33,238 nt of DNA, from the NCBI GenBank assembly GCA_024682595.1, contig JAIKZA010000029.1, positions 1 through 33,238 of the forward strand. The letters run 5' to 3'. Origin of the DNA: Candidatus Saccharimonadota bacterium (GTDB taxonomy: Bacteria; Patescibacteriota; Saccharimonadia; Saccharimonadales; Saccharimonadaceae). This document shows, in pieces, positions 14,241 to 32,791 of the stretch. The notes below the pieces were generated by a model. It was given only the letters and a program-made list of their open reading frames with translations, made no database searches and was not told where the DNA came from. Numbering within the stretch: position 1 is the first letter of the stretch; the number at the start of each line of letters is the position of its first letter. The position numbers were made by a program, and so were the translations under genes.

Positions 14241-15677
14241 TTAAATCTTACGAATTTGAATCTGGTTTGTGCCGCCCTCTTCGTCGCGCAAGCCAGACAC
14301 TACCACTACCGTGAGATTGTCTTTGCCTTCTGACACTTTTAGATAGCCGCTCGCCTTCAACTCTTGAGCCGCATCTACGGCATAATTATCGCCAAATTCG
14401 CGCACATACGCCGAGTTTGCATACGTCAAAGCCAATTGTCCCGCCACGCGCGGATTACTCGTAATCGATACCATCGGAATATTCGGACGCTGTGCCGCAA
14501 TCGCCTCGGCGGTTGCCCCACTCTTGGTGGCCGTCACAATTAAGTCAGCGTCAATTTGTTCTGCCAAACGCACCACCGCACGCGAAATCGCATCATAATT
14601 CTTGTAGTTACCCGTCGTTTCCTTCTCAATTGGAAGAATACGTGAATTATCCTGTGTATAAAGAATCACCTTCTTCATCTCTTTAATTGCCTCAATCGGA
14701 TATTTGCCGTTTGCAGTCTCGTCCGAAAGCATCACCGCATCGGTACCAAGCAATACCGCCGTGGCGACATCTGAAACCTCAGCACGAGTTGGACGCGGAT
14801 TATCTACCATCGAACCTAGCATTTGTGTTGCTACAATGCAAAGCTTCGAATACTGGCGACAAAGCGCAATAAGCTTACGCTGCACGATCGGAACAATTTC
14901 TGCGCCCGCTTCGTAGGCTAAGTCGCCACGCGCTACCATAATACCATCAGTCGCCTTCACGATTGCTTCCATCGTCTCATCGTTTTCTACTGCTTTTTTG
15001 GTCTCAATTTTCGCAATAATCTGCGCCGTTGAACCATGTGAAACCAAAATTTGACGCAATTTATCGATATCATCTGCGCTCTGAATGAAGCTCATTGCCA
15101 CATAATCAAAATCGCGGCTTGCGCCAAATTCTATGTCTGCCAAATCCTTCTCGGTAATAATGTCACCACCCATATCCGTATCTGGCAAATTGATACCCTT
15201 GCGACTCATCAAGAAACCGTCGTTCTGCGCCTTAATCTTAATCGCAGTCGAGGACACAATCTCAGTAGTAATGCCCTCTACTTTTCCGTCAAATAAAAGC
15301 ACCGGTTCGCCAACTTTTACCTTTTCGGCTAAATTATATTGTATAGGCAGAATCTTCCCGCCATCATGCTCTTTGCAAGCATAATCCAAAGTTAATTCAT
15401 CACCAGTCTTCACATCTAAATGGTTATCCTTTAAATCTCCCAAACGAATCTTTGGACCCTGCAAGTCTTGCACAATCGCTACCGACTTGCCACGCTCTGC
15501 AGCATAGCGCCTAATCGTTGCAATTTGCTGATCGCGTTCGTCATAGGTGCCATGACTAAAATTTAAGCGAAAACCATTTACGCCCGCATATACCATTTCT
15601 TTCAACTTCTCTTCTGCAAATACGGATGGGCCGACCGTTGCCAAGATTTTAGTGCGTTTAAATAACTTTGTACTCAT
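14241..15677 (-). CDS. pyk: Pyruvate kinase
   Basis: It converts phosphoenolpyruvate and ADP to pyruvate and ATP. The 478-aa sequence shows RTKILATVGPS at the start, FRLNFSHG, QDLQGPKIRLG, IAKIETKKAVEN, the active-site MVARGDLAYE, TRAEVSDVATAVLLGTDAVMLSDET and a full C-terminal alpha/beta domain (TKSGATAEAIA to VVVSGL). It is first in an operon with pgk, so the two ATP-forming steps of lower glycolysis are expressed together. An extended -10 (TGGTATAAT) ends 7 nt before the ATG, and no SD is seen, so the mRNA is probably leaderless. A long structured RNA ending in a terminator lies just upstream on the same strand. Confidence 0.97.
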   Translation of the reverse strand: MSTKLFKRTKILATVGPSVFAEEKLKEMVYAGVNGFRLNFSHGTYDERDQQIATIRRYAAERGKSVAIVQDLQGPKIRLGDLKDNHLDVKTGDELTLDYACKEHDGGKILPIQYNLAEKVKVGEPVLLFDGKVEGITTEIVSSTAIKIKAQNDGFLMSRKGINLPDTDMGGDIITEKDLADIEFGASRDFDYVAMSFIQSADDIDKLRQILVSHGSTAQIIAKIETKKAVENDETMEAIVKATDGIMVARGDLAYEAGAEIVPIVQRKLIALCRQYSKLCIVATQMLGSMVDNPRPTRAEVSDVATAVLLGTDAVMLSDETANGKYPIEAIKEMKKVILYTQDNSRILPIEKETTGNYKNYDAISRAVVRLAEQIDADLIVTATKSGATAEAIAAQRPNIPMVSITSNPRVAGQLALTYANSAYVREFGDNYAVDAAQELKASGYLKVSEGKDNLTVVVVSGLRDEEGGTNQIQIRKI

Positions 15678-15684
15678 ATCTTTA

Positions 15685-15693
15685 ATTATACCA
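15685..15693 (-). promoter_or_regulatory. Extended -10 promoter of pyk
   Basis: TGGTATAAT on the minus strand, with TATAAT at 15690-15685 and 7 nt to the ATG at 15677. The -35 region is weak. Confidence 0.65.
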
Positions 15694-15738
15694 TTAGATA
15701 GCTTGCGACATAAACTCTTTAATCAATGAAAAGGACCA

Positions 15739-15763
15739 TAAAAAATCCCCCCGTCGGGGGGGA
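15739..15763 (-). terminator. Terminator of the mini-ORF RNA upstream of pyk
   Basis: CCCCCC/GGGGGG hairpin with a GAC loop, followed on the minus strand by ATTTTTT. Confidence 0.85.
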
Positions 15764-15909
15764 AGAGGTGCGCCATAACCGGCGCCTAAAGCTTTGGAGC
15801 GGACGACGAGCTTTCAGCGGTGCAGTCTGACTGCTGTGCTTACTTGCGCAAGAGTTGTCGCCGCTCCAATGATCAGAGTTTGGAGTGTGGCCGCCATTGG
15901 CGGCTTAAT

Positions 15910-15918
15910 CTAGAGCAT
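15910..15918 (-). CDS. Two-codon mini-ORF ATG-CTC-TAG, second copy
   Basis: AAGGAGG (15930-15924), exactly 5 nt, then ATG CTC TAG. This repeats the mini-ORF at 16061 with the same spacing and the same codons. A GCCGCC/GGCGGC hairpin begins 5 nt after the stop. A ribosome here would sit on the base of that hairpin. It is not expected to make a functional peptide; the act of initiation and termination may be the point. Confidence 0.4.
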   Translation of the reverse strand: ML

Positions 15919-16052
15919 CGGCGCCTCCTTCCTACGAAGAGAAAGCTCGTGAAGTCCTGGATCCGGCCGGCGTCGCTGACAACGCAAAGGCGCATATAAC
16001 TTCCGACGAGCGGTTAATTGCGGCATTCGCCACGCGTTGCGCGTGGCCCCAT

Positions 16053-16061
16053 CTAGAGCAT
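16053..16061 (-). CDS. Two-codon mini-ORF ATG-CTC-TAG, first copy
   Basis: AAAGGAGG (16074-16067), 5 nt, then ATG CTC TAG. The stop is followed after 5 nt by the perfect hairpin GCCACGCG-CAA-CGCGTGGC. The SD is fully complementary to the usual 16S rRNA 3' end. Identical in layout to the copy at 15918. Confidence 0.4.
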   Translation of the reverse strand: ML

Positions 16062-16116
16062 GAGTGCCTCCTTTCGCTAAAAGTTTCCGCGAATAAATGC
16101 CCAAGGGCATTTAAGC

Positions 16117-16152
16117 TCACCTGTTGGGCGGCCTTTCGCTATAATTCTTCAA
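16117..16152 (-). CDS. Eleven-residue mini-ORF with a TTG start
   Basis: AAAGGAGG (16167-16160) and 7 nt precede TTG. The peptide would be (M)KNYSERPPNR. The stop lies just before the AAATGCCC/GGGCATTT hairpin. No ATG is in this position, so the start depends on the strong SD. Confidence 0.35.
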   Translation of the reverse strand: MKNYSERPPNR

Positions 16153-16266: not shown

Positions 16267-16317
16267 TTAATTGTTACTCCGGGTGTTCCGGAGCGAGTAA
16301 TTGCCATGCTTTTTCAT
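16267..16317 (-). CDS. Sixteen-residue mini-ORF
   Basis: GGAGG in an AGAGGAGGAG context lies 8 nt before ATG. The peptide would be MKKHGNYSLRNTRSNN. The CTCCGG-AACAC-CCGGAG hairpin lies inside the coding part, so translation would melt it. It is the first ORF of the transcript. Confidence 0.45.
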   Translation of the reverse strand: MKKHGNYSLRNTRSNN

Positions 16318-16366: not shown

Positions 16367-16395
16367 ATGCTATCATACATTTGACTATCTGTCAA
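16367..16395 (-). promoter_or_regulatory. Promoter of the mini-ORF RNA
   Basis: Consensus TTGACA (16395-16390), 17-nt spacer, TAGCAT (16372-16367) on the minus strand. Confidence 0.7.
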
Positions 16396-16539: not shown

Positions 16540-16568
16540 ATTTTAACAAGTTCTCTGCTTTTTAGCAA
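16540..16568 (-). promoter_or_regulatory. Promoter of tRNA-Glu
   Basis: TTGCTA (16568-16563), 17-nt spacer, TAAAAT (16545-16540). The tRNA begins 9 nt after the -10. Confidence 0.7.
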
Positions 16569-16603
16569 GTCGTTTAAAAATCGCATTCTTTAATTTACTA
16601 AAT

Positions 16604-16634
16604 AAAAATAGGGCGTCCCACCAAGGGGGCGCCC
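16604..16634 (-). terminator. Terminator of the RNA downstream of murG
   Basis: GGGCG-CCC/GGG-CGCCC hairpin followed on the minus strand by TATTTTT. Confidence 0.75.
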
Positions 16635-16660
16635 GAGAATGAGGAGAACGGCCGTCCTCC

Positions 16661-16705
16661 TCAAATAATTATGCTACGAGCCAGACATTGTGCACGCTTA
16701 GCCAT
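16661..16705 (-). CDS. Fourteen-residue mini-ORF
   Basis: The peptide would be MAKRAQCLARSIII. GAGGGGG lies 6 nt before the ATG. The TGA stop overlaps the base of a GAGGAG/CTCCTC hairpin, so a terminating ribosome would affect that fold. Confidence 0.35.
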   Translation of the reverse strand: MAKRAQCLARSIII

Positions 16706-16866
16706 ACGTTTCCCCCTCTGTGCATCGCACACAAAGGCGTGGCGTGTGACTAACCATACAGGCCTATCTTTCGTCTACCGAACCAGCGACGAAAGATTTT
16801 AGCCAACTTCTGTCTTATCGTACAGAAGCCAATAAATATCCAGCTCAACAAACGTTCAAATTGACA

Positions 16867-31085: not shown

Positions 31086-31260
31086 TTTTTTTGTTTTAAA
31101 AAAATGAGTCCGTAGCTCAGCTGGCTTGAATTAGATACGGCACCTGCCTTCTTGCCCATTTGGGCAAGGTCGTGAGTTCAAGTCTCACCGGACTCACCAT
31201 TTTTTGTTTTAAAAAAATGAGTCCGTAGCTCAGCTGGCTTGAATTAGATACGGCACCTGC
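31055..31260 (+). repeat. Two direct repeats of about 92 bp derived from tRNA-Lys
   Basis: Copy 1 is 31055-31147 and copy 2 is 31169-31260. They differ by one T in a T run. Each holds a tRNA 3' half with CCA, a T/A-rich linker and the next 5' half. They are separated by the 21-nt palindrome-bearing CTTCTTGCCCATTTGGGCAAG, which sits where the anticodon arm would be. Confidence 0.85.
31106..31199 (+). pseudogene. tRNA-Lys-like sequence with altered D loop and anticodon arm
   Basis: The 94-nt unit keeps a perfect acceptor stem (GAGTCCG/CGGACTC), the T arm and CCA of the neighbouring tRNA-Lys. Its D region has about 10 extra nt (CTTGAA and TACG inserted) and lacks the GAGC half of the stem. The anticodon arm is replaced by a 7-bp hairpin CTTGCCC-ATTT-GGGCAAG with a 4-nt loop and no usable anticodon. 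It is a degenerate tRNA or a tRNA-like RNA. A third, 5'-half-only copy is at 31219-31260. Confidence 0.65.
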
Positions 31261-32493: not shown

Positions 32494-32639
32494 GATGCCA
32501 TACCCTCCTAAAAGAAAAACAAGAAAAAATGCCCAGATGGGCGATTTTATCTACAATTCTCTGGTGCACCATAGTGCACGAAGTTCGAACCATAATCGTT
32601 CGTGATATTCTCGATAGTTCAGGGCGGAAGGAGGTTAGC

Positions 32640-32648
32640 ATGGCGTAG
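32640..32648 (+). CDS. Two-codon mini-ORF ATG-GCG-TAG
   Basis: AAGGAGG (32628-32634), exactly 5 nt, then ATG GCG TAG. SD, spacing, length and stop match the two mini-ORFs upstream of pyk. It precedes the small CxxC gene by 44 nt and could act as its leader. Confidence 0.4.
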   Translation: MA

Positions 32649-32692
32649 CTACTAGTCTCTTTTTGATAACTTTAACAACGAAAGGTCTTAAG

Positions 32693-32791
32693 ATGATTGT
32701 AATTCGCGACAACGAAGTAAAACAAGAGTGCAGCATATGTAACCACGAAACACGAATAAAGCTCACGGACGAGGAATTAGAGGCTTACTGA
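32693..32791 (+). CDS. Thirty-two-residue CxxC protein
   Basis: Too short for the track. AAAGG (32681-32685) lies 7 nt before ATG. The peptide is MIVIRDNEVKQECSICNHET followed by RIKLTDEELEAY. The CSIC pair and a following His suggest half of a zinc site, so it may bind metal as a dimer. It has a natural acidic, helical end and a terminator downstream. No family recognised. Confidence 0.55.
   Translation: MIVIRDNEVKQECSICNHETRIKLTDEELEAY

Follow-up and report, generated by a model that had tools for sequence, protein, structure and literature searches.

Repeated Shine-Dalgarno-led two-codon minigenes as candidate ribosome-loading modules in a putative self-contained structured RNA of a Saccharibacteria genome

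The DNA analysed here (the window) is a 33,238-nt stretch of a Saccharimonadaceae genome. On its minus strand, tRNA-Glu (16530-16455) and pyk, the pyruvate kinase gene (15677-14241), are separated by a gap of 777 nt. This gap holds a unit of about 630 nt, also on the minus strand, which extends from a predicted promoter to an intrinsic terminator and includes two modules with the sequence AAGGAGG-N5-ATG-CTC-TAG (Table 1). The first-pass annotation had reported this duplicate motif without a strand; it is real, and both copies lie on the minus strand. The same RNA carries two more short ORFs led by a Shine-Dalgarno (SD) sequence, as well as the promoter and the terminator, all of which that annotation had missed. 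The -10 element of the unit promoter is TAGCAT in the window, whereas the relatives have a TATAAT-like TAATAT. With the terminator at 15766-15740, the unit has no downstream cistron on its own transcript, which sets it apart from leader minigenes. In the genus members read, a TATAAT-like -10 box stands a few nucleotides before the ATG of pyk (15677-15700, minus strand), which suggests that the pyk mRNA is leaderless.

Table 1. Predicted features of the unit between tRNA-Glu and pyk, in the order of transcription (window coordinates).
Feature	Coordinates	Strand	Remark
Sigma-70-type promoter TTGACA-N17-TAGCAT, extended TG	16367..16395	-	Conserved in G036, G026 and G031
SD-led short ORF1, 16 codons in the window	16267..16317	-	MKKHGILLAPEHPE-stop (14 codons) in three relatives
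SD-led (GAAAGGAGGT) short ORF2, TTG start, MKNYSERPPNR-stop	16117..16152	-	Compared in four genomes
Shine-Dalgarno AAGGAGG, mini-ORF copy 1	16067..16073	-	Matched by the genome's 16S 3' end GGATTACCTCCTTTCTA
Mini-ORF copy 1, ATG-CTC-TAG	16053..16061	-	Motif AAGGAGG-CACTC-ATG-CTC-TAG at 16073-16053
Perfect hairpin GCCACGCG-CAA-CGCGTGGC of copy 1	16029..16047	-	Invariant in five copies
Shine-Dalgarno AAGGAGG, mini-ORF copy 2	15924..15930	-	Predicted pairing with upstream UCUCUU
Mini-ORF copy 2, ATG-CTC-TAG	15910..15918	-	Motif AAGGAGG-CGCCG-ATG-CTC-TAG at 15930-15910
Perfect hairpin GCCGCC-AAT-GGCGGC of copy 2	15890..15904	-	Starts at +15 from the ATG
3' multi-branch RNA domain, 13-bp closing stem and three hairpins	15791..15874	-	Weak structural match at the corresponding position of the G003 unit
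Intrinsic terminator CCCCCCCGACGGGGGG with T-run	15740..15766	-	Closes the unit ahead of pyk

In each module, the TAG is followed after 5 nt (ATGGG in copy 1, ATTAA in copy 2) by a perfect hairpin that starts at +15 from the A of the ATG. The two hairpins are unlike in sequence, as the first-pass annotation had stated; they do share GCC...GGC ends. The motif AAGGAGG-N5-ATG-CTC-TAG had no match in 100 dinucleotide shuffles of the window, and a third exact copy was not found anywhere in the 1.04-Mb genome. Intergenic SD-led ORFs of at most 25 codons number 36-38 in the whole genome, and the tRNA-Glu/pyk gap is the sole intergenic region with more than two of them on one strand. None of 5,000 shuffles of the unit contained four SD-led short ORFs or two two-codon ORFs; as a caution, when all intergenic DNA was shuffled together, one of 30 shuffles gave a cluster of four SD-led short ORFs somewhere. 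In a scan that covered G000 completely and roughly half of G020, this hotspot was the only place to combine a promoter with three or more SD-led micro-ORFs and a long non-coding stretch. No Rfam family scores above its cut-off for the unit. In another part of the window (31106-31199, plus strand), ARAGORN predicts a 94-nt tRNA-Cys, without confirmation by Rfam at its cut-off; the genome has another tRNA-Cys at a different place.

The unit is kept at the same locus in three genomes of the genus (G036, G031 and G026), with 81-88% identity in the aligned pieces, so that comparisons at alignable distance cover four genomes. The relatives have two, two and three intact modules, the third module of G026 having arisen by tandem duplication of about 145 bp. 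AAGGAGG and ATGCTCTAGAT are invariant in the nine modules of the four genomes, and all nine have the architecture of an SD-led two-codon minigene, defined as a strong SD 4-9 nt from the ATG, one sense codon and a stop; here, AAGGAGG stands 4-5 nt from the ATG. The spacer is almost free in sequence and fixed in length at these 4-5 nt: only one of its 10 columns is invariant, whereas the figure for all ungapped columns is 81%. CTC is as invariant as the start and the stop, and so is the AT that follows the TAG. Each of the two ATGs marks the first position of one of the two longest invariant runs in the unit (38 and 30 nt), which continue through the hairpins. G036 and G026 also contain an extra 37-nt partial copy without an SD, the core of which has drifted to ATG-TTT-TAG and ATG-CTT-TAG, respectively. 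The number of open codons upstream of the ATG ranges from 5 to 81 among the copies, and the copy-to-copy period (143, 143, 144, 146 and 145) differs modulo 3. As the upstream frame is not conserved, the mini-ORFs are not the end of a longer protein. One candidate of this kind, a 66-aa frame at 16110-15910 that ends in the same TAG, was rejected, since neither G031 nor G026 has it intact.

Selection on the mini-ORF itself, as proposed in the first-pass annotation, is borne out by the invariant SD and start-to-stop core, the fixed spacer length and the drift of the copy lacking an SD. Its alternative, a recent duplication absent from relatives, fails on the presence of the motif in three of them. 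The comparison thus supports selective maintenance of the repeat in the three nearest relatives, while its role is inferred from the features discussed below.

The folding energy of the unit is 2.3 standard deviations below that of dinucleotide shuffles, in a set of only 20. In the free-energy folding, the SD of the last module is largely paired (unpaired probability 0.00-0.13), and its translation may therefore be weak or regulated. Since UCUAGA is palindromic, the two copies can pair with each other; in the consensus folding, the UCUAGA of copy 1 indeed pairs with that of copy 2, and the SD of copy 2 pairs with UCUCUU. Two-sided changes affect only one of 185 consensus pairs, so the consensus structure itself is putative. 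A covariance model of the 3' domain matches only the four close genomes genome-wide. A further match, at the corresponding position of the G003 unit, is weak (E about 0.05) and suggestive only, because the model also scores its own antisense strand at 22-25 bits.

The exact motif was found nowhere else in 393 genomes of the order. The general form AAGGAGG-N4..6-ATG-NNN-TAG, the pattern that the first-pass annotation had proposed to look for across CPR genomes, gives four matches in 148 other genomes of the order and four for the reversed pattern. Being no commoner than this control, the arrangement is locus-specific, and a minigene class spanning the CPR was rejected for lack of enrichment outside the genus. 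Within the genus, the general form with TAA or TAG occurs 17 times versus two for the control; nine of the 17 belong to this locus, and others to an unrelated, dispersed coding-like repeat. In a scan of 84,980 species and viral contigs, multi-copy exact motifs were confined to three Saccharibacteria MAGs, all carriers of the unit, and an origin from phages or other bacteria was rejected on this ground. Single matches elsewhere were no more frequent than chance (an estimated 20 or so for 18 specified bases).

The dispersed repeat is itself present in the window as a coding-like stretch of about 65 nt, W(C/W)T.V(H/R)EVRTII..DILD(S/N)LG, at 32553-32760 (plus strand). It occurs in 15 of 45 genus genomes, with up to three matches each, frequently located just behind a terminator and ahead of an unrelated gene. 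The window copy ends in AAGGAGG-N5-ATG-GCG-TAG (32628-32648), ahead of a small CxxC ORF; homologs have ATG-TCA-TAG, ATG-CTG-TAG and others. This site was discarded as independent support because its ATG-N-TAG is the in-frame end of the repeat (W.T.V.EVRTII..DILD..G.KE.SM., then stop).

The distance from tRNA-Glu to pyk is about 100-165 nt in most members of the genus, and the gap is an insertion hotspot with rapid turnover, some members having transporter-like or large ORFs there. Inserts of this kind include a 1617-aa ORF in G019, a 3.75-kb ORF in G008 and an ABC-transporter-like set in G034, G035 and G013. Seven genomes (G067, G005, G015, G004, G006, G019 and G020) carry largely unalignable units in the gap, on the same strand, with a predicted promoter, SD-led micro-ORFs, hairpins and mostly GGGCGCC-type terminators; in G003 and G024, the unit lies on the strand opposite to pyk. 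The two-codon form is not conserved in these divergent units. In G004, an 18-nt hairpin identical to that of module 1, CCACGCGCAACGCGTGGC, comes immediately after an SD-led five-codon ORF. In G003, CCGAAAGGAGGCACCT-ATG precedes a long stem (TTGGA...TCCAA) whose position corresponds to that of the 3' domain in the window, and the ORF that matches the mini-ORF in position is an unrelated one of 8 codons. ORF1 of the divergent units has H-P-x at or near its end, encoded by differing His and Pro codons (EHPE, SHPQ, HSHPP, HPHPL and LHPNQR, each before the stop). ORFs of G003 and G024 end in SGFT, SGFK and SGFK, again with different codons, and others in ...WYRPGGL and ...WFAPGDL. These resemblances were spotted by eye, after the fact and in few sequences, and carry moderate weight.

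Because different species retain the plan but share hardly any of the sequence, such an RNA might work through ribosome occupancy or nascent micropeptides rather than by coding for protein. The gap could tentatively be viewed as a hypervariable site that hosts self-contained RNAs of a new kind, with a promoter, SD-led micro-ORFs of 2-20 codons that stop at or near hairpins, a multi-branch 3' domain, a terminator and no downstream gene. On the other side of tRNA-Glu, the murG/tRNA-Glu gap contains a second structured, G+C-rich stretch (16540-16866, minus strand) with an SD-led short ORF (MAKRAQCLARSIII, then stop) and a GGGCGCC terminator; other members of the genus have an apparently conserved RNA-like stretch there (TTCTCCGCGAC...GAAGCATAAG).

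The 16S rRNA of the genome ends in an anti-SD that matches AAGGAGG, and strong SDs are uncommon, with matches of at least 7 nt in 115 of 740 first-ATG genes (about 16%). RNase J and the peptidyl-tRNA hydrolase Pth are encoded, and CTC makes up 16% of the Leu codons, with tRNA-Leu(GAG) present. The pattern of invariance in the modules is the one expected under selection for initiation and termination. Owing to the invariant SD, ATG and in-frame stop, together with a free spacer of fixed length, we think that ribosomes load at the mini-ORFs, and with no downstream gene on the transcript, the simplest use of this loading would be in cis. Our preferred reading, to which we assign a probability of roughly 0.4, is that the two ATG-CTC-TAG minigenes are ribosome-loading modules, probably with a cis-acting role, in a structured RNA that is self-contained and evolves fast. 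A ribosome would initiate at the mini-ORF, make fMet-Leu and meet UAG at codon 3, where it would be released or would re-initiate at the same spot. The RNA would thus carry ribosomes parked at fixed places before stable hairpins. The likeliest benefit would be that occupancy shields an untranslated structured RNA from nucleases, sets the folding of neighboring helices, or both. Transcription of the unit, binding of ribosomes and this protective or folding role are what we infer from the sequence. Several observations speak against loading: a pure loading site would need neither the invariant CTC nor the AT after the TAG, ORF1 has a frameshift in the window, the last module's SD is largely paired, and UCUAGA is a palindrome.

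Some of these points could be accommodated if the RNA were purely structural, with AAGGAGG and UCUAGA kept as pairing elements or for RNA dimerisation and the ORF incidental. The consensus pairings of both elements fit this explanation, as do the continuation of invariance through the hairpins and the loss of the palindrome in the extra copy that lacks an SD. It leaves unexplained why a variable spacer is fixed in length, why an ATG lies exactly there and why an in-frame stop follows, and it is weakened by the single pair with a two-sided change; we judge it quite unlikely. Alternatively, the unit could be a polycistronic micropeptide RNA, whose SD-led short ORFs are kept for their peptides, the mini-ORFs being the smallest of a leader-like set. 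Codons 2-7 of ORF2 show four differences among the four genomes, all synonymous, compared with 13% expected for random changes, and the shared peptide endings despite different codons point in the same direction. A Met-Leu dipeptide is nevertheless unlikely as a specific product, ORF1 of the window is shifted in frame by a 1-nt deletion relative to G036, G026 and G031, the positional counterpart in G003 is unrelated, and the endings are a post hoc observation in a small set; we regard this explanation as unlikely, though not negligible.

The first-pass annotation had suggested peptidyl-tRNA drop-off, in which fMet-Leu-tRNA-Leu would be released and tRNA-Leu(GAG) depleted, slowing translation under some condition. 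A two-codon ORF with a strong SD is the most toxic architecture known (PMC8708949), the RNA has two to three copies, and CTC is invariant. This mechanism nevertheless lacks specific support here: CTC accounts for 16% of Leu codons and has its own tRNA, Pth is present, UAG is reported to be less toxic than UAA (PMC8708949), the RNA's remaining SD-led ORFs have 11-16 codons, and the two-codon form is not conserved in the divergent units. Compared with ribosome loading in cis, drop-off is possible and less likely, and we regard it as improbable. Least of all do we expect a functionless by-product of tandem duplication or a decayed gene. The rapid turnover of the hotspot and the 66-aa frame sharing the TAG would fit such an origin; the motif is more conserved than the rest of the unit, and that frame is broken in two relatives.

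Two-codon minigenes are mostly known as isolated leader elements or toxic constructs, and the RNA biology of CPR/Patescibacteria is, to our knowledge, almost unexplored. Here, a natural two-codon minigene is repeated and selectively kept at a fixed distance from hairpins, in an RNA without an evident downstream gene. If read correctly, the unit would offer a clean test of the idea that parked ribosomes serve bacteria as structural or protective components of an RNA.

Our literature searches turned up no description of an RNA of this kind for Saccharibacteria. The tmRNA model does not match the unit; it scores above the cut-off at other genomic positions in 35 of the 45 genomes of the genus (in G000, it gives weak matches only, perhaps because of an assembly gap), and a tmRNA substitute was rejected. 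CsrB/RsmZ sponges carry several GGA motifs in a structured RNA, and the unit resembles them in this respect; a CsrA sponge was rejected, as no CsrA was found in the genome. The phage lambda bar minigenes (ATG-ATA-TAA) cause peptidyl-tRNA drop-off, the general mechanism of which is covered in PMC8708949. Like them, the modules have a two-codon ORF with a ribosome-binding site; unlike them, they use CTC and UAG and sit in a structured RNA with longer SD-led ORFs, with no Pth limitation known. Closer parallels are the two-codon leader minigenes of axe-txe and EHEC LEE1 and the six-codon mini-ORF of LEE4, which combine a strong SD with ATG-N-stop or a very short ORF and for which a cis action by ribosome occupancy, protecting from endonuclease, has been proposed (PMC8708949). 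The two-codon minigene stabilises txe mRNA, and SD occupancy at the six-codon mini-ORF stabilises LEE4 mRNA (PMC8708949). These elements precede and tune a downstream gene, whereas the unit ends at a terminator and repeats its module two to three times. In Bacilli, strong SDs stabilise long untranslated RNA even though no start codon follows (PMC3997798), and the unit shares with the STAB-SD stabilisers of Bacillus (Agaisse & Lereclus 1996, cited in PMC3997798) a GAAAGGAGG-type SD in untranslated RNA, in a genome that encodes RNase J. STAB-SD needs no start codon and sits near the 5' end; the sites of the unit are internal, and their invariant start and stop suggest that the mini-ORF modules differ from STAB-SD. 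Taken together, the minigenes of the unit would be best described as a variant of the SD-led kind that sits within a self-contained structured RNA, which might possibly represent a new RNA class.
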